A stretch of 32,756 nt of DNA. It comes from Chitinophagales bacterium (GTDB lineage Bacteria; Bacteroidota; Bacteroidia; Chitinophagales; Saprospiraceae). The notes beneath the pieces are model-generated. The model had not been told where the DNA came from and did no database searches. It worked only from the letters and a program-made list of their open reading frames with translations. Below, one piece after another: positions 21,952 to 32,510 of this stretch; position 1 is the first letter of the stretch, and the number at the start of each line of letters is the position of its first letter. The translations under genes were made by a program, and so were the position numbers. The stretch spans positions 1-32,756 of the forward strand of contig JAIXKS010000023.1 of NCBI GenBank assembly GCA_026928325.1, given 5' to 3'.

Positions 21952-22032
21952 ACTTTTTGTTTCTTTTGTGTCAAGACAAAAGAAAAGAAAGACTGAAAAT
22001 ACTACTTATGAATAGATTTTAAGCCAAAAGTC
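21952..22032 (+). repeat. 81-bp direct repeat, left copy
   Basis: Matches 22522-22602 with 3 mismatches in 81 bp (offset exactly 570). It contains a 9-bp perfect hairpin, TTCTTTTGT (21961-21969) with ACAAAAGAA, around the loop GTCAAG. It lies 53 bp after the def stop. It does not code for an accepted protein. Confidence 0.8.
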
Positions 22033-22312
22033 TAAAAAGTGAATTATTTGAATTTAATATTTGTGTTAAATCTTCACTTGTTTAGCTAATTGCCTCAGGC
22101 TACCTGAACAGCACTACTTTATTATGAAGACTTTTAAAACTTGTTAATACCAAATTTAAGCCGGCCTTAGCGGGTCATCCGTTAAAAAATCATGGAATAA
22201 AAACGTTAAAAATTTAAAACTGTTTGAGCCTATTCATAGTAAAATCGAGAGAAGAAGGCCAAGTTGGCGAAAATGGTCAACCGAAACCGGTTACACTAGG
22301 GCGAGTTTTTTG
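22033..22312. other. Gene-free stretch between repeat elements
   Basis: About 280 bp between the left 81-bp repeat and the palindromic element. I see no credible ORF, no promoter match and no RNA gene. It is bounded on both sides by repeats, so it may be part of a larger composite insertion. Confidence 0.4.
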
Positions 22313-22521: not shown

Positions 22522-22602
22522 ACTTTTTGTTTCTTTTGTGTCAAGACAAAAGAAAAGAGAGACTGAAAATATCACTTATGAATAGATTTTAAGCCAAAAG
22601 TC
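22522..22602 (+). repeat. 81-bp direct repeat, right copy
   Basis: Second copy of 21952-22032, same orientation, 3 mismatches. The two copies bracket the palindromic element at 22313-22473. The hairpin arms are unchanged. Confidence 0.8.
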
Positions 22603-22727
22603 AAAACAATTTCACCATTTTCTCCAACTCGACAAATCTAACGAATCCACGAATCCACACCTGGCTACAAGAAGTTATGACCACTGCACTAATATGGGCT
22701 AGTCGGCTAAAATGATGAAATAAGCTT

Positions 22728-25275: not shown

Positions 25276-26886
25276 CTAAATGGTTTTTAGGCCTAATTCT
25301 TTTAAAAATTCATTGTGTTTATCCGTACTCGATTTGATTTGCTGATTAATAGCGCTTAATTCTGTATGCACTGCTTCCAAGTCAATTTGTACCTCATCTT
25401 CTGTTGTACTCACATATCTTGAAATATTCAGATTATATCCGTTCTTTTCAATCTCCTCCATCGAAACTTTGCGAGCATACCGCTCTCTTTCGCTTCTGAA
25501 TTTGTAAGTTTCAACAATGCTTTGAATGTGTTCTTCGCTTAATGAATTTTGCCTTTTCCCTTTTTCAAAATGTTCTGCTGCATTGATGAATAATACATCT
25601 TCTTGCTTTTTACATTTCTTCAAAACTAAGATGCAAACCGGAATACCTGTCGAGTAAAACAAATTACTTGGCAAACCAATAACGGTGTCAATATGATTGT
25701 CTTTCAGTAATTTGGTGCGGATTCGTTCTTCTGCACCACCACGAAACAAAACGCCGTGTGGCAAGATAATTGCCATTGTTCCTTCTTTTGCTAAAAAGTG
25801 AAATCCGTGCAAGAGAAAAGAAAAGTCAGCGGCTGATTTGGGTGCTAAACCATAACTTTTGAAACGAAAATCTTCACCCATAGCTTCGTTGGGTTCCCAA
25901 CGCAAACTAAATGGCGGATTGGCTACAATGGCATCAAATTCTGTCTTTTTGCTTGGGTTCATTTCGTTGAGCAAATCCCATTGATTGAGCAAAGTATCTC
26001 CGTGAAATATTTCAAACTCGGTGTCTTTCATTCCGTGCAAGAGCATATTCATTCGTGCAAGGTTGTAGGTGGTTATGTTTTTTTCCTGACCGTATATTTT
26101 GCCGATAGTACCGCCATTTTCTTTCATTCGTTTCCGAACATTCAACAACAAAGAACCCGAACCGCAAGCCATATCCATCACCTTTTCCAATTTGTCTTTT
26201 TTGCCTGTTTCCGGGTTTTGGCTGTCTAAGGTTACGATTTCCGAAAGAATGGTAGAAATTTGTTGCGGTGTATAAAATTCTCCTGCTTTCTTTCCCGAAC
26301 CTGCTGCAAACTGACCTATCAAATATTCATAAGCATCGCCCAAACTGTCCGCATCGGTAGAAAAATCGGCAATGCCTTCCGCTATCTTTTGAATGATAAC
26401 ACACAATTTTTTATTCCTGTCGGCAGCGGTTTTGCCTAACTTCTCAGAGTTGAGGTTAATCTCTGAGAACAAGCCTTGGAAAGAGCTGTCAAAAGATTCG
26501 TTTTCGATAAATCTGAAACCTGCCTCTAAAGTGGACAACAGTTCATCATCTTGGATTCGAGCCATCTCTGAAATATTGCTCCAAAGGTGTTCCGGCTTGA
26601 TAACATAATGCACTTTTCGCCGCATTTGTTGTTCAAAATCGGCAGTGTCTTTTGGATTTTCGGCATACCAAACCGACAAAGACGTGCGATTATCGTCTGC
26701 TTTCAAAACAGGATAATCTCTACCCAATTCTTTTTTGGTAGCTTCTTCGTAATTGAAAGATAGATAACGAAGAAAGAGAAACGAAAGCATATAATCTCGA
26801 AAATCATCTGCATTCATTGCACCTCGCAGGCTGTCTGCTATATCCCAAAGGGTTTTTCCTAATTGTTGTTGGTCTTTTTGTGTCAT
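25276..26886 (-). CDS. hsdM: Type I restriction-modification methyltransferase subunit HsdM
   Basis: N6-adenine DNA methyltransferase subunit of a type I system; with HsdS it modifies the recognition site. The N-terminal HsdM helical domain (about 8-130; LGKTLWDIADSLRGAMNADDFRDYML) is followed by the methylase core. There, AGEFYTPQQI (201-210), SAM-binding motif I DMACGSGSLL (238-247) and catalytic NPPF (323-326) are all intact. The C-terminal part contains LPHGVLFRGGAEERIR and the usual end helices. The 536-residue length is normal. The ATG lies 3 nt after the stop of the RAYT reading frame, so it is transcribed as the last gene of the hsdR-to-hsdM operon. Confidence 0.96.
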   Translation of the reverse strand: MTQKDQQQLGKTLWDIADSLRGAMNADDFRDYMLSFLFLRYLSFNYEEATKKELGRDYPVLKADDNRTSLSVWYAENPKDTADFEQQMRRKVHYVIKPEHLWSNISEMARIQDDELLSTLEAGFRFIENESFDSSFQGLFSEINLNSEKLGKTAADRNKKLCVIIQKIAEGIADFSTDADSLGDAYEYLIGQFAAGSGKKAGEFYTPQQISTILSEIVTLDSQNPETGKKDKLEKVMDMACGSGSLLLNVRKRMKENGGTIGKIYGQEKNITTYNLARMNMLLHGMKDTEFEIFHGDTLLNQWDLLNEMNPSKKTEFDAIVANPPFSLRWEPNEAMGEDFRFKSYGLAPKSAADFSFLLHGFHFLAKEGTMAIILPHGVLFRGGAEERIRTKLLKDNHIDTVIGLPSNLFYSTGIPVCILVLKKCKKQEDVLFINAAEHFEKGKRQNSLSEEHIQSIVETYKFRSERERYARKVSMEEIEKNGYNLNISRYVSTTEDEVQIDLEAVHTELSAINQQIKSSTDKHNEFLKELGLKTI

Positions 26887-27183
26887 CGTTTATTCGTTGA
26901 AAAATTTGTCTTCCTGCCAATTGGCAGGATTGTTTATAATGTAATTATTGATGTGTTGGAATGATTTATCATCACGAATAATGTGGTCGTGAAAACGGGT
27001 TTGCCACGTGAAATCAAAACCCAAACGATGGGCGTGTTTTGTCACGGCAGATTTGTATGACCCCACAATGGACGATATGGAATTTTTACCGATGTTTTGA
27101 AACCGTTGTTGGCCAATGGTTTTTTGTTCGATTTGGGTGAATGGCGTTGGTTGTTCCGTTTGGTTGGATGGCGTGGATGGATT

Positions 27184-27279
27184 GGGTTGGATGGGTTGGA
27201 TGGGTTGGATGGGTTGGATGGGTTGGATGGGTCGGATGGGTTGGATGGGTCGGATGGGTTGGATGGGTCGGATGGGTCG
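27184..27279 (+). repeat. Tandem 9-bp repeat, about 10.7 copies
   Basis: The unit is GGGTTGGAT, with GGGTCGGAT variants in the later copies. It lies inside the RAYT gene, and in the transposase frame it reads as Pro-Ser-Asn/Asp repeats. The unit is a multiple of three, so copy-number change alone keeps the frame. Confidence 0.95.
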
Positions 27280-27297
27280 TAGAGACAGGGCATGCCC
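27279..27297 (+). repeat. Partial REP-like palindrome inside the RAYT gene
   Basis: GTAG (27279-27282) followed by AGACAGGGCATGCCC. Bases 27284-27297 equal the first 14 of the 18-bp palindrome GACAGGGCATGCCCTGTC found whole in hsdR. A 5' GTAG before the stem is the known hallmark of REP sequences recognised by RAYTs. It sits exactly between the two tandem arrays. Confidence 0.6.
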
Positions 27298-27365
27298 CCA
27301 TTTTCATTGTTGCCCCCATTTTCATTGTTGCCCCCATTTTCATTGTTGCCCCCATTTTCATCGTT
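27294..27365 (+). repeat. Tandem 18-bp repeat, 4 copies
   Basis: The unit is GCCCCCATTTTCATTGTT (27294-27311 onward), perfect in three copies, with one T-to-C change in the fourth. In the transposase frame it encodes a six-residue Asn/Glu/Gly repeat (NENGGN). Confidence 0.95.
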
Positions 27366-27651
27366 GTGCCCGTTGATATTGTTGTTATCATCGGTAATAA
27401 TTATAACACCGTGAATATGATTGGGCATTACCACAAATTCGGCCAATTCCACATTTTGTGAATGATTTTTTATTTCGTACCACAATACATCAGCAATAAC
27501 ACCCGTATGTGATAATTGCATTTGTCCGTTTTTAATTTCACCAAAATAATGCAAACGGTTTTTGGTACAAATGGTTATGAAATATGCACCCGCCCAACGA
27601 TAATCCCAATTTTGTAATCGGGTGGAAGGTATGCGATATTTGTTTTGAAAT

Positions 27652-28965
27652 TTATCCATTTTTTTGTTTTGTTGTTTGGTCATTGTTGATATCGTTGTTA
27701 TCATTGTCATATGACAATGACAATGACGGAAATAAACCCTGCATCAACCCTTTTTTATGCAATTTCAATTGTTCTATCTTCTCGGCTTGTGCTGTGATGA
27801 GTTCATCTAAGGCAGAAAGACAAGAAGCGATTTTTTGTTGTTCATTTAGTGATTTAGGTATAATTAATTTATATTTTTCAAAATCTTTTTGATAAAGATG
27901 CACAATTGAAGAACCTCCTGATAATTTATTTAAAAAAGATGTAAACCTTGAACTTAAAAAGGAATGGAAGATAAATTCTGAATCATATAAGTCCTCAATT
28001 CTTATTCTAAAAATACCATTATTAAGAGTAGCTTCTTTTTCATTTAAGTTTTCCACAAAAGCTACTTTTCCAATACTTCCATCTTTTGTAATTAATATAT
28101 CTCCATTTTTTAGAATAATGTTTTCATCTTGAATATATCTTTCGTATTCTACAAATTTGGCTTTGTCCCAATCAATTTTATTGTTTTTAAAGTCAGTACC
28201 TGTAACTAAATAATATTTACCTTCATCTAAATGTTCTTCCTTTCTAAGGTTTTGCCAACCAATTCTTGCTTTCATTGTTGCCATATCAAGTATATTTTTT
28301 TCTTCCCATTCCCCCTCAAACTCCTTAAACCTCAACTTTGGCACTTTCTCATTTTCTTGTGGGAAAAGATTCTGCATCAATCCTTTTTTGTGGTTTTTGA
28401 GTAGTTCCAACTTTTGGCTGTGGGCTGTAATTACTTCATCTAAAGAAGATAAGCAAGAAGCGATGCGTTGTTGTTCTTCTTTGTCTTTGGGAATTCTGAT
28501 TTTCATTCTTTTCAAATCAGAATTATATAATCTACTAATAATTCCACCATCTGAAGTTTGCCACTTCAAATTTGAATAACAATAGAATAAAAAGTTATTG
28601 GAAACTATTGCTTCGTTGTTTCCTAACCAAACAATATTTGAGTCTTGAAAATAAGCAGGCGAACCATCATAAATTACCAATCTTCCAATTGTTCCAGAAG
28701 CCGAGATTAGAATATCACCAATATTTGGAAATGAATATTTACTTTTAAATTCATTATATTTTTCAAGTGAAATAAAGGCATCAGGCACTCTTCCAAAAGT
28801 TCCAATTTTGAAAAAGGGAATTCCTTCATTTGGATTTGTTTCTTCTGCAAAAATTCTCTTGCACATCAAAACTTCTCCAACTTCCCCTAACGTTTTCACT
28901 TCCCACGCTGCACTATTGGCAAATTCAGGGAAACGCAGTTCGGGTATTAATTTCTTCTTACTCAT
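27652..28965 (-). CDS. hsdS: Type I restriction-modification specificity subunit HsdS
   Basis: DNA sequence-recognition subunit of 437 residues with two target-recognition domains (about 20-160 and 215-370). Each is followed by a matching conserved spacer helix: EEQQRIASCLSSLDEVITA... at 163-202 and NEQQKIASCLSALDELITA... at 374-413, both ending KKGLMQ(N/G)LFP. Two complete halves mean a bipartite recognition site. The ATG overlaps the stop of the upstream GxxExxY gene by four bases (ATGA). The stop overlaps the RAYT start (ATGGATAA). The last 24 residues (SLSLSYDNDNNDINN...) are low-complexity and not part of the usual fold. They lie over an 18-bp palindrome at 27702-27719 and look like a tail added when the RAYT arrived. 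Confidence 0.95.
   Translation of the reverse strand: MSKKKLIPELRFPEFANSAAWEVKTLGEVGEVLMCKRIFAEETNPNEGIPFFKIGTFGRVPDAFISLEKYNEFKSKYSFPNIGDILISASGTIGRLVIYDGSPAYFQDSNIVWLGNNEAIVSNNFLFYCYSNLKWQTSDGGIISRLYNSDLKRMKIRIPKDKEEQQRIASCLSSLDEVITAHSQKLELLKNHKKGLMQNLFPQENEKVPKLRFKEFEGEWEEKNILDMATMKARIGWQNLRKEEHLDEGKYYLVTGTDFKNNKIDWDKAKFVEYERYIQDENIILKNGDILITKDGSIGKVAFVENLNEKEATLNNGIFRIRIEDLYDSEFIFHSFLSSRFTSFLNKLSGGSSIVHLYQKDFEKYKLIIPKSLNEQQKIASCLSALDELITAQAEKIEQLKLHKKGLMQGLFPSLSLSYDNDNNDINNDQTTKQKNG
27702..27719. repeat. Perfect 18-bp palindrome at the hsdS-RAYT junction
   Basis: CATTGTCATATGACAATG is self-complementary, followed by a further CAATGAC repeat. It lies in the low-complexity tail of hsdS just upstream of the RAYT start. 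Confidence 0.8.
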
Positions 28966-29408
28966 TTGTCTGAATCAGGATTTGTAGGATTATTGGATTT
29001 CAGGATTATTTGGTTGTTCGATTTCAGAATTTTGGAAGAGTATTTTGGATTAAATACCTTTTTAAATTGTAGGCTTGTGCTTCCAAAATTGATAAGTAGT
29101 CCTATGGGTTTATCATAAGCAACCACATAATTTTTGGCTTGGGCTAAATGCACATCTTCTAAATTGATGAGTGCTTTTAATTCAACCACAACACTATCTT
29201 CAATAATAAAATCGGCTCTTCTTGTTCCCACATCAATACCATCATAATAAATAGTGTGGGATTGTTCTCTTTGAAAAGAAATTCCTGCACGTTCCAATTC
29301 AATTGCCAAGCACCTTTGGTAAATCAGTTCCTGAAATCCATTACCAAGTGTATTATGTACTTTCATCGCACATCCATTTATCTTATATGTCAACTCATCC
29401 AAGTTCAT
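28962..29408 (-). CDS. GxxExxY protein (PD-(D/E)XK-like)
   Basis: A 148-residue protein of the GxxExxY family, named for the motif seen here as GFQELIY (Gly24, Glu27, Tyr30). The core has a nuclease-like RADFIIEDSVVVELKA, with Asp66, Glu76 and Lys78 in PD-(D/E)XK order. A biochemical role for the family is not established to my knowledge. It sits between hsdR (49-nt gap) and hsdS (4-nt ATGA overlap), which is not a standard subunit position. The C-terminal 22 residues are repetitive (ILKSNNQIILKSNNPTNPDSDK) because they are encoded by one arm of a 24-bp inverted repeat that brackets the gene. It may therefore be a cassette inserted into the operon, not a restriction subunit. Confidence 0.85.
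   Translation of the reverse strand: MNLDELTYKINGCAMKVHNTLGNGFQELIYQRCLAIELERAGISFQREQSHTIYYDGIDVGTRRADFIIEDSVVVELKALINLEDVHLAQAKNYVVAYDKPIGLLINFGSTSLQFKKVFNPKYSSKILKSNNQIILKSNNPTNPDSDK
28968..28991 (+). repeat. Inverted repeat, arm 1, at the 3' side of the GxxExxY gene
   Basis: GTCTGAATCAGGATTTGTAG plus GATT. It pairs with 29439-29462 in reverse complement with 23 of 24 matching. It begins 3 bp from the hsdS ATG and covers the last codons of the GxxExxY gene. Confidence 0.85.
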
Positions 29409-29438: not shown

Positions 29439-29462
29439 AATCCTGCAAATCCTGATTCAGAC
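29439..29462 (-). repeat. Inverted repeat, arm 2, at the 5' side of the GxxExxY gene
   Basis: Reverse complement of 28968-28991 with one mismatch. The arm supplies the TGA stop of hsdR (29459-29457). Weaker similarity continues inward beyond the 24 bp, as in decaying terminal inverted repeats. Confidence 0.85.
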
Positions 29463-32400
29463 AGTGTAGGCATTTAATCCACTTATTTCTCTTCCTTGTG
29501 CCAATTTTTTTAATTGCGGAACAAGGTCTGCCATTAAAGCCAATTCTTTTGTTCTGCGTTCTTTCCAATTCAAATCCAAAGGTTCTAAAAGGTCGGTTAG
29601 TTTTTCTCCGTCAAAAATCATTCGGCTCATTATTTTTTCTACAAAGGTTTTGAGGTTTGCGGTTTGCAATCCGTTTTTTAGAGCAATTTCAGCTATTTCT
29701 TTGTTGTATTTGTTATCTCTAAATTGTTCTAAACTAAGCTTCAATTCATCAACGGTTTGACCTTTTGACCAATCAACCTGTTCTATAAACTCAATCAAAT
29801 CCTCATCTTCCATTAGGTTAGAATTGGATTTTAGCAAACTGATTACTTGTGCTTTGGTCATTTTTTGCTTGGCAGGCTTCTTTTGCGTGCTGTCTGCAAT
29901 CAAATTCATTATATAATCATAGTCAATCACGGCAGAAGCAAACAACACAAATTCAAAATCTAATTGCTGAATGGCTTCGGGTGCATTTTCTCCTTCTTTT
30001 TGTTGTATTTTTCGTAATTGCTTGGCGGTTTCTATATACGAACTGCGGAACTCCTGCAAAGTTTCCGTTGGTAAAATGGCTTCGATTTTTGTTTTTTGCG
30101 TTTCGTCTAAATCGGTGTATTGGTCGAGTTGTGTTTTTATCCTTTGTACTTCTTTAAAATTTTGCACAAAGGCAATTCGAGCTGCATCGCCTTTCAGGTT
30201 ATAAACTTCTTGAGGTTCGTTTACTAAATTATTTTCCTGCATAAAAACGCCTAATTTTTCGACGGCTTCTTTATATTTATCAATCATCACAGGTGCAGGT
30301 TCCACCAACCAAATCTCTCTTGATTTTTCTTTATTGTCTTCTCCCGAAAATAAGGCTATAGCTTGGTTTACGGCTTCTTGTTGGCTACGAAAATCAAGAA
30401 TATTTCCATAAGGTTTGGTATCATTCAGCACACGATTAGTTCGTGAAAACGCCTGAATTAATCCGTGGTATTTCAGGTTTTTGTCCACATATAAAGTATT
30501 CAAGAATTTGCTGTCAAAACCTGTAAGTAACATATCTACCACAATAGTGATGTCTATTTTATCTTTGTGTGGAACGTCTTTGTTGCTGTATTTTTGGTCT
30601 TTGATGCGTTTTTGCACATCTTGATAATACAAGTCAAATTCGTTGATAGTATGATTGGTCTTGTATTGCGTATTGTAATCGGCAATAATTTCCATCAATG
30701 CCTTTTTCTTTTCTTCTGGATTTTGCTGATTGTCCTCTTTTTCCTGTGCCAAATCTTCTTGTAATTGCTTGATGTCAGCCGCATTTTTTTGGCTTTTTTG
30801 GTCGCCTTCATTTGCCATTAATTGGGCAGGCGGAGAAAACACACAAGCGATATTTAGTGGAATGTAATCTGGTTGAGACAGCCCATGCTGTTGAGACAGG
30901 GCATGCTGTTGAGACAGGGCATGCCCTGTCTGTACGGATTTGAATAGTTGATAATATTCAATAGCATTATTGATAGAAGCCGTAGCCAATACCGCATTAA
31001 ATTTGCGTTCGTTGGTTGCAGCATTGTGTTTTTCCAAAATGGCTTCCACCACAGCTTGTTGAGACAGCGCTTGTTGTTGAGACAGCGCATGCGCTGTCTG
31101 TACTGCAGATTTCCCTTTAAAATAATCAATGTGAAATTTCAATACATTCCTATCATCTATGGCGTGCGTGATGGTATAAGCATGTAATTCTTTTTCAAAA
31201 ATATCTTGGGTTGTTTTATAGGATTTTTCTTCTCCATCAATTTGAGTATAGCTCGCATTTTCCTCAAAAATAGGCGTGCCTGTAAAACCAAATAATTGTG
31301 CATTCGGAAAAAACTCTTTAATCGCTTTATGGTTTTCGCCAAACTGTGAACGGTGGCACTCATCAAAGATGAAAACGATTCGTTTGTTGCTTAATGGTTC
31401 TAAACGCTCTTTGTAGTTGCGTTTATTTGTTCCGTCTAATGCCAAACCTAATTTTTGAATGGTGGTAACAATTACTTTATCAGCATAATCGGTAGAAAGT
31501 AAACGTCTTACCAATGTTTCGGTATTGGTGTTTTCTTCCACACTTCCTTCTTGAAATTTATTAAACTCTTCACGAGTTTGTCGGTCAAGGTCTTTTCTAT
31601 CCACCACAAACAAACATTTATCAATATCGGGATTGTCTTTTAAAAGGGTTGATGCTTTAAAAGAAGTCAAGGTTTTACCACTTCCCGTAGTGTGCCAAAT
31701 ATAGCCGTTTCCGCGATTTTGATTAACACATTCTTCGATGGCTTTTACAGCATAAATTTGATACGGTCGCATCACGAGCATTTTCTGTTCGCTTTGCACC
31801 AATACCATATATTTACTAATCATTTCACCAAGTGTACATTTCTTTAGAAACCTATCTGTAAAGTCTTCAAGATGCTTGATTTTCTTGATTTTTTCATCTG
31901 CCAAATGGTAAACAGGTAAAAACTGCTCATCGGCATTGAATTGAAAATGTTGCTTGATATTATTGGCAAAATAGAATGTGTTTGTTCTGTTACTCACAAT
32001 AAACAACTGCATAAAACAAAGCAATGAATTTCCGTAACCGTTGCCCGCTTCGTTTTTGTAATCTACAATTTGTTGCATTGCCTTTCGTGGCGAAATATCT
32101 AAGTTTTTCAACTCGATTTGCACCATTGGAATGCCGTTAATCAACAAAATAACATCATATCGTTGATGGCTGTTTTCCGTATTGATACGCAATTGGCTAA
32201 TAACTTCGTACTCATTTTTGCACCAATCTTTGATATTGACCAATGTATAATGCAAAGGCGTTCCGTCTTCCCGTTGAAAATATTGTCTTTCTCTCAAAAA
32301 TTTAGACGCAATAAAAACATCAGAATTAATAATTTCCTCCCGAAGTCGCAAAAATTCACTGTCCGAAAGATGAACACGGTTGAGTGCTTCAAATTTTTCT

Positions 32401-32510
32401 TTGAAGTTTTGCTCCAAGGTTTTTCTATCCACTATATCAGGTCGATAAGTGTATTTCAGCCCTTTGAGTTGCTCAATTAATTGTTGTTCGATTTGATGTT
32501 CTTTAGTCAT
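29457..32510 (-). CDS. hsdR: Type I restriction enzyme motor/endonuclease subunit HsdR
   Basis: The 1017-residue ATP-dependent translocase and nuclease of the type I complex. The N-terminal nuclease has Asp119 (RYDVILLI) and QIELK with Glu133 and Lys135. The SF2 motor has Walker A TGSGKT (275-280), DECH (383-386), FTGTP (409-413) and FSRTNR (688-693). The C-terminal assembly domain follows. All key residues are intact. The odd features are two in-frame inserts between the motor lobes, VQTAHALSQQQALSQQ (470-485) and VQTGHALSQQHALSQQHGLS (526-545). Both are encoded by REP-like palindromes plus 18-bp repeats. The insertion points flank the conserved VVEAILEKHN...SINNAIEYYQLF block, where I would expect variable loops. 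It is the first gene of the operon. Its stop codon lies in the inverted repeat of the GxxExxY cassette. Confidence 0.96.
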   Translation of the reverse strand: MTKEHQIEQQLIEQLKGLKYTYRPDIVDRKTLEQNFKEKFEALNRVHLSDSEFLRLREEIINSDVFIASKFLRERQYFQREDGTPLHYTLVNIKDWCKNEYEVISQLRINTENSHQRYDVILLINGIPMVQIELKNLDISPRKAMQQIVDYKNEAGNGYGNSLLCFMQLFIVSNRTNTFYFANNIKQHFQFNADEQFLPVYHLADEKIKKIKHLEDFTDRFLKKCTLGEMISKYMVLVQSEQKMLVMRPYQIYAVKAIEECVNQNRGNGYIWHTTGSGKTLTSFKASTLLKDNPDIDKCLFVVDRKDLDRQTREEFNKFQEGSVEENTNTETLVRRLLSTDYADKVIVTTIQKLGLALDGTNKRNYKERLEPLSNKRIVFIFDECHRSQFGENHKAIKEFFPNAQLFGFTGTPIFEENASYTQIDGEEKSYKTTQDIFEKELHAYTITHAIDDRNVLKFHIDYFKGKSAVQTAHALSQQQALSQQAVVEAILEKHNAATNERKFNAVLATASINNAIEYYQLFKSVQTGHALSQQHALSQQHGLSQPDYIPLNIACVFSPPAQLMANEGDQKSQKNAADIKQLQEDLAQEKEDNQQNPEEKKKALMEIIADYNTQYKTNHTINEFDLYYQDVQKRIKDQKYSNKDVPHKDKIDITIVVDMLLTGFDSKFLNTLYVDKNLKYHGLIQAFSRTNRVLNDTKPYGNILDFRSQQEAVNQAIALFSGEDNKEKSREIWLVEPAPVMIDKYKEAVEKLGVFMQENNLVNEPQEVYNLKGDAARIAFVQNFKEVQRIKTQLDQYTDLDETQKTKIEAILPTETLQEFRSSYIETAKQLRKIQQKEGENAPEAIQQLDFEFVLFASAVIDYDYIMNLIADSTQKKPAKQKMTKAQVISLLKSNSNLMEDEDLIEFIEQVDWSKGQTVDELKLSLEQFRDNKYNKEIAEIALKNGLQTANLKTFVEKIMSRMIFDGEKLTDLLEPLDLNWKERRTKELALMADLVPQLKKLAQGREISGLNAYTV
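30872..30935 (+). repeat. REP-like insert in hsdR, site B
   Basis: Three 18-bp units begin GTTGAGACAG (30872, 30890, 30908), and the last runs into a perfect palindrome, GACAGGGCATGCCCTGTC (30913-30930), followed by TGTAC. On the coding strand it reads in frame as HALSQQ-type hexapeptides. It matches site A in layout and the half-palindrome in the RAYT gene in sequence. Confidence 0.9.
31058..31103 (+). repeat. REP-like insert in hsdR, site A
   Basis: Two 18-bp units begin GTTGAGACAG (31058, 31076), and the last forms a perfect palindrome, GACAGCGCATGCGCTGTC (31081-31098), followed by TGTAC. Relative to site B the stem differs by a compensated G-C swap (GGG...CCC to GCG...CGC), so pairing is preserved. 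It lies in frame in hsdR. Confidence 0.9.

Follow-up and report, generated by a model that had tools for sequence, protein, structure and literature searches.

Probable REP-derived palindromes in frame within an HsdR restriction subunit encoded beside a RAYT gene

The gene for the motor and nuclease subunit of a type I restriction system in a Chitinophagales bacterium holds a near-identical palindrome at two places in its reading frame, raising the question of where such hairpin DNA came from, how it entered a coding sequence, and whether the enzyme has any use for it. The window analysed here (the whole 32,756-nucleotide stretch, from a 3.7-Mb genome, G000) carries on its minus strand a type I restriction-modification operon made up of hsdR (29457..32510), a gene for a GxxExxY accessory protein (28962..29408; TIGR04256, without a PADLOC match), the specificity subunit gene hsdS (27652..28965; Pfam Methylase_S, PADLOC Specificity_I), an ORF resembling a RAYT (REP-associated tyrosine transposase; 27042..27710), and the methyltransferase subunit gene hsdM (25276..26886; TIGR00497, PADLOC MTase_I). 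The 1017-aa hsdR product matches Pfam HSDR_N, ResIII, SWI2_SNF2, T1R_D3-like and EcoR124_C, as well as TIGR00348 and PADLOC REase_I. The EcoR124_C match and the similarity to PDB 2W00 (E 2.9e-113, residues 4-728) place it among EcoR124-type HsdR proteins, and with these domains present the nuclease and helicase parts are whole, as a preliminary description of this DNA had stated. Elsewhere in the window, a palindrome, TTATCATTGTCATATGACAATGACAA, lies at 27698-27723, at the overlap of the hsdS 3' end with the RAYT ORF start, and two 85-bp direct repeats that are 95% identical (21952-22036 and 22522-22606) lie in a region without long ORFs, each containing a hairpin (TTTCTTTTGTGTCAAGACAAAAGAAA).

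Site 1 (31058..31103, plus strand; HsdR residues 470-485) consists of one 18-bp arm copy followed by a palindrome from 31080 and GTAC; site 2 (30872..30935, plus strand; residues 526-547) has two arm copies, then a palindrome from 30912 and GTAC. The cores match GACAGCGCATGCGCTGTC at 31081-31098 (site 1) and GACAGGGCATGCCCTGTC at 30913-30930 (site 2) without mismatch. At a tolerance of up to three mismatches, chance would give 0.01 matches in the window, and none of 100 shuffles contained two; the palindromes are real and far beyond chance. The paired repeat-plus-palindrome architecture first described thus stands, with the correction that the perfect palindromes span 20 bp (starting at 30912 and 31080), not 18. 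Read on the plus strand, the 18-bp units start with GTTGAGACAG (exact at 30872, 30890, 30908, 31058 and 31076), duplicate half the palindrome and precede it at each site; TRF detects the array at site 2. Also borne out were a compensated change between the two cores, which is a single G-C to C-G swap, and the coding of HALSQQ-type hexapeptides, in frame at both sites within the 1017-aa ORF that carries the HsdR Pfam domains. Single-stranded folding was far more stable than expected at site 2 (z -6.6 on the plus and -6.3 on the minus strand) and less markedly so at site 1 (z -3.3 and -2.5; 2 of 200 shuffles equally stable on either strand). At both sites the stem is 10 and the loop 0, as in the near-perfect palindromic stem of a GTAG or double-foot REP. 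The feet of the hsdR copies, GTTG and GTAC, deviate from the 5' GT[AG]G and 3' C[TC]AC of such elements, and for that reason we call the segments REP-derived and not REPs; the GTAG foot is retained only in a half copy within the window's RAYT gene.

Both sites lie in low-confidence loops of the predicted HsdR structure. In the AlphaFold2 model, which is of moderate quality (mean pLDDT 75.6, pTM 0.62), eight segments have pLDDT <50, and two of them, 468-478 and 536-546, fall within the repeat peptides. Relative to the Pfam matches, site 1 (470-485) lies between SWI2_SNF2 (250-474) and T1R_D3-like (502-708), so that the placement originally proposed for both, between the two motor lobes, is right for site 1; site 2 (526-547) falls inside the T1R_D3-like match.

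The repeats were absent from all 93 distinct HsdR homologues (99 sequences besides the query, minus six identical copies), and ALSQQ was exclusive to the query among them, the nearest likeness being HAVS in L092. Against the commonest loop length, site 1 is longer by 4 aa (that length being common to 74 of the 93) and site 2 by 12 aa (87 of the 93). The nearest homologue from the same genus is 73% identical, and events were judged against proteins 65-86% identical. The loops at sites 1 and 2 differ in length even among repeat-free homologues. When inserts were defined as stretches of at least 4 residues in alignment columns filled in <30% of sequences, they fell at query residues 363-365 (21 rows), 465-481 and 528-548, with single cases at 424, 591 and 815. 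At 363-365, 18 of the 21 rows are lysine- or charge-rich and resemble ordinary length variation. Short repeat-like peptides, in frame at the 363-365, 465-481 and 528-548 loops, occur in 12 of the 93 homologues, and one such sequence is found in both orientations at two loops: PSTSLRAG (residue 365 in L006) and ALSEVEG (residue 544 in L116, L118 and L122) are nearly one sequence read in opposite directions. PSTSLRAG, ALSEVEG, ARTELAER, LPNRQAG and LSADQAG were considered as mobile palindromes and rejected, none having a stem of 7 or more. The sequence CTTCGACWWCGCTCAG has a single copy in G011, located within hsdR, and two in G141; eight other genomes lack it. The HsdR loops that receive inserts are tolerant, and we make no claim that each insert is mobile.

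A whole-genome search of G000 with four patterns for the palindrome gave no full copy beyond the two in hsdR, and one half copy, that within the RAYT gene. The word mobile, which the preliminary description had made to depend on more copies in the genome, is not supported for this genome. Relatives are another matter. The pattern GTWGAGACN12GTCT is present in 71 of 150 family genomes, mostly in few copies and in some cases in many: forward and reverse matches numbered 23 + 41 in G027, 67 + 62 in G148 and 58 + 66 in G163, a repeat with both feet being counted on both strands, and reversed-pattern controls gave 0 to 1. Among the 26 places listed for G027 (64 matches, against 1 for the control), 25 read GTAGAGACAGGGCA[TC]GCCCTGTCT; a two-footed pattern had no match in that genome, so that the GTAG foot of these copies is confined to a single end. 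The cores of such REPs vary among family genomes yet remain self-complementary, and at L125 and L033 REPs of this type directly adjoin RAYT genes. Sharing core and spacing with this type, and having the feet GTTG and GTAC, the hsdR segments may be read as its decayed relatives.

Does the operon itself contain a transposase that could have brought them? The RAYT-like ORF (27042..27710, minus strand) encodes the HUH part; it matches NF047646 with E 2.3e-5 and 24.3 bits against a cut-off of 80, has no Pfam match, and is 56% identical to residues 1-137 of the L130 RAYT. The C-terminal part with the Tyr region, 61% identical to residues 126-213 of the L130 RAYT, lies in another frame (26893..27303, minus strand). 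Between the two parts are the half REP GTAGAGACAGGGCATGCCC (27279..27297, plus strand), which shares its core with hsdR site 2, and two arrays found by TRF on the plus strand: 18-bp tandem repeats (4.1 copies, 27293..27366) that begin within the half REP, and 9-bp tandem repeats (11 copies, 27178..27277). The operon thus has a RAYT gene, as first reported, in a frameshifted form: as assembled, HUH part and catalytic Tyr are split over two frames. It is possible that the frameshift is an assembly error. The clear case of a cognate RAYT with the same REP is at L130, an hsd locus in a Bacteroidales record, where the RAYT (P0002; NCBIfam score 57.4 bits against a cut-off of 80) is in an open frame, and the linker joining its HUH and Tyr parts carries all 28 bp of GTAGAGACAGGGCATGCCCTGTCTCTAC in frame.

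A search of the 150 family genomes with P0002 gave matches in 54. Thirty loci from this search, and five met otherwise (some via a REP), made up a set of 35 RAYT loci, in 24 of which the linker boundaries could be placed, the script finding no C-terminal motif in the other 11. Linkers contained a palindrome with a stem of at least 10 in 16 of the 24 loci, against 0.27 expected from codon shuffles, and the flanking parts of the genes contained one in 3, against 0.9 expected; the palindrome was absent from 8 of the 24 linkers. Among scored loci picked by RAYT similarity alone the count was 13 of 19, a figure that may favour REP-bearing relatives, the P0002 query being itself REP-bearing. A looser script found the palindrome in at least five of the 11 unscored loci (L170, L174, L175, L187 and L194). 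Extra arm copies lie nearby in 4 of the 16 linkers (L173, L178, L192 and L196) and, by the looser script, in L187, the same architecture as in hsdR. Some linkers hold long palindromes centred on a REP, with stems of 43 (L194), 26 (L193), 19 (L176) and 24 (L248:9336), which look as though they had grown outward from it. REPs inside RAYT genes of Bacteroidetes and Cyanobacteria have been published (PMC6006769), and we rejected the idea that their presence here is new.

How palindromes of this kind enter genes was compared in six cases: the two window sites, L092, L013, L155 and L167. None shows a clean gain of 28 bp. That length is not a multiple of three, and the first reading of the hsdR segments as plain insertions is not supported; because a frame filter acting on a 28-bp element demands an indel in each case, survivors with various indels are what one would see. 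If the extra 18-bp units are left uncounted, site 2 has the native loop length and site 1 falls two codons below it. In L092, another HsdR, the loop corresponding to site 2 is unchanged in length and holds 28 palindrome-like bp that begin with GTAG and have a perfect stem of only 7. The best-resolved comparison sets L013, which comes from G005 of the same genus and belongs to a different HsdR subfamily, against its G009 counterpart, to which it is 87% identical over 505 residues: GTTGAGACGCAGCATACTGCGTCTTTAC lies in frame immediately ahead of the Walker A strand, at a gain of five codons, and its feet look partly native, GTAAA and CAAC pre-existing in the target. The operon of L013 also holds a REP-carrying RAYT, and the two cores differ. 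An in-operon RAYT thus accompanies both palindrome-bearing hsdR genes whose operon can be seen, the contig of L092 being too short to show one. In G169, an in-frame REP (RDAINRVST) occurs in two genes other than hsdR, whose products we take to be an FG-GAP-type repeat protein (L155) and an alpha-2-macroglobulin-like protein (L167); comparison with REP-free homologues 58-72% identical gave about +7 or +8 codons for L167 and about -6 codons for L155. The length changes in L167, L155 and L013 rule out length-neutral overwriting as a rule, which site 2 and L092 had suggested. Either a RAYT or template switching may have been the agent of entry.

We consider it probable, by comparison of these sequences, that the hsdR segments are decayed RAYT-associated REPs that entered two loops, had their arms copied later, and persist as tolerated passengers. 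The source element would have been a REP of about 28 bp, made of a 4-nt foot, a perfect palindrome and a second 4-nt foot, which would have entered the two HsdR loops in the form of a short DNA hairpin, a RAYT probably doing the cutting and joining of single strands, with only frame-keeping outcomes surviving. Half of the palindrome would then have been copied in tandem in 18-bp (six-codon) steps, as in some RAYT linkers. Because the peptides lie in flexible loops and neither the nuclease nor the motor domains are broken by them, their most likely status is that of tolerated passengers. It is probable that the copies reached G000 together with the hsd operon, as opposed to spreading from another place in the genome. 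Whereas the sequences themselves, their position in loops, their absence from homologues and the presence of this palindrome in other family members and within RAYT genes are observations, mobilisation by a RAYT, slippage, neutrality and horizontal arrival are parts that we infer. Set against this reading are the deviating feet, the lack of another full copy in G000, the absence of two-footed matches in G027, the best source of the same core, the differing hsdR and RAYT cores in the L013 operon, the 8 scored RAYT linkers with no palindrome, the distance of the repeat-free homologues compared, and the moderate quality of the structure model. In Stenotrophomonas, a RAYT bound but did not cleave GTTG and GTAC substrates (PMC8266576); if that behaviour applies by analogy here, the hsdR copies would be dead ends.

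The same palindromes might have been copied without any transposition: a REP, that of the nearby RAYT gene or some other, would have served as the template in template switching or in gene conversion between short homologous stretches. We regard this as possible, if somewhat doubtful. It would account for the partly native feet (GTAAA, CAAC) in the G005/G009 HsdR pair and fits the site 2 core of the half REP in the window's RAYT gene; template switching could also explain the RAYT-linker palindromes that far exceed REP length (stems 43, 26 and 19 in L194, L193 and L176). Against it, the site 1 core (GCGCATGCGC) is absent from the RAYT gene, and the G005 hsdR core is unlike the copy in its RAYT.

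That RAYT genes should sit in type I restriction operons at all is a more unusual lead than the hsdR palindromes. Among ten genomes of the window's genus, RAYT matches (E 1e-6) were found in six, at nine loci, of which six lie within type I hsd operons (G000, G003:C63, G005:C31, G005:C32, G005:C56 and G009:C41); hsd subunits were assigned by PADLOC in G000, G003, C31 and C32, and by similarity and gene order in C56 and G009. The RAYT gene of C32 contains an internal stop. Of the remaining loci, that in G008 adjoins a PtuA/PtuB (Septu-like) pair, and the two in G001 had no hsd gene in the available flanks (<1 kb on one side). The top-scoring PADLOC HsdR model is not the same in G000, C31 and G003, so the pairings look like separate associations. 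Across the family, where the flanks were about 1.5 kb at most, 4 of 30 RAYT loci were with hsd genes: the window and G009, of the same genus, and L177 and L193, where similarity is short or weak. Conversely, a RAYT was present at 3 of 80 HsdR loci (48 of the 80 being at least 15 kb), with one further case in G011. By these counts (3/80 and 4/30), we rejected residence of RAYT genes in hsd loci as a general rule outside the genus. Of the RAYT genes inside type I hsd operons at L248, L249, L250, L263, L264 and L268 (from G005, G009, G011 and G003), five of the six have an internal palindrome; in the exception, L250, from another genus, the palindrome is beside the RAYT gene. At L267:3557-6358, a 22-bp palindrome lies within a RAYT gene that neighbours a PtuA/PtuB (Septu-like) gene pair.

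Recurrence of RAYT genes in this genus's type I hsd operons would fit selection, in which REP-coded linkers tune the HsdR motor, or a hairpin in mRNA or DNA regulates the operon. Consistent with that idea are the 12 of 93 homologues with other short in-frame peptides at three loops, these two included, and the altered site 2 loop of L092, palindrome-like with a perfect stem of only 7. We think selection unlikely: the other 81 homologues have no such peptides, loop lengths vary without repeats, as tolerant sites would, and palindromes are not clearly enriched across 89 hsdR genes, four of them duplicates (45 found against 39.5 expected from synonymous shuffles), so that general enrichment was rejected. 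A bolder version, in which RAYT-REP modules recur in and are co-selected with hsd operons, and the resident RAYT repeatedly seeds hairpins into permissive hsdR loops that grow by six-codon steps and diversify the motor, strikes us as slightly less likely still. Ordinary tandem-repeat slippage in a loop that was palindromic by chance is very improbable: obvious as the 18-bp tandem copies are at both sites, it would leave unexplained why two loops hold nearly one palindrome differing by a compensated swap, where chance predicts 0.01 matches for the window, and why the palindrome recurs in relatives' RAYT genes and dispersed copies.

The hsdR pair places a published phenomenon in a host gene and setting that are new, and the copies, preferred here as decayed RAYT-associated REPs, are probably tolerated passengers. 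The initial judgement of the locus as unusual is not supported by the literature, in which REPs within genes, RAYT genes included, are already described (PMC3733652, PMC6006769). Our literature search found neither hsdR as a REP host nor the presence of RAYT genes in type I hsd operons. The main text of PMC3733652 has neither 'hsd' nor 'restriction', and mentions Bacteroidetes only under CGTC repeats; 'hsd', 'restriction' and 'tandem repeat' are likewise absent from the main text of PMC6006769. The locus offers a tractable setting for hairpin DNA becoming protein: the same loops of a well-studied enzyme take different short inserts in different lineages, and a candidate mover of some of them, the RAYT, is encoded close by. 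The association of RAYT genes with hsd operons is open to testing at scale.

Several known systems resemble parts of this picture. Rickettsia palindromic elements (RPE, cited in PMC3733652) are palindromic DNA tolerated as an in-frame protein insert, and small dispersed repeats in Nostoc are tiny repeats that lie beside short tandem repeats. Closer are the REPs of TnpAREP subclass 2.4, which are long and double-footed (GT[AG]G and C[TC]AC), belong to a subclass common among Bacteroidetes and Cyanobacteria, and are also known as in-frame inserts separating the HuH and Tyr parts of the tnpAREP gene (PMC6006769); unlike those described there, the window's copies are in hsdR, have the feet GTTG and GTAC, and were found nowhere else in the genome. 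Intragenic GTAG-tagged REPs, as described by Di Nocera et al. (2013, PMC3733652), lie in frame, many in genes for DNA-acting enzymes and presumably in flexible loops, with two per gene in some cases (uvrA, uvrB). The hsdR copies share with them the palindrome in frame within a gene, and differ in their decayed feet and tandemly copied arms.
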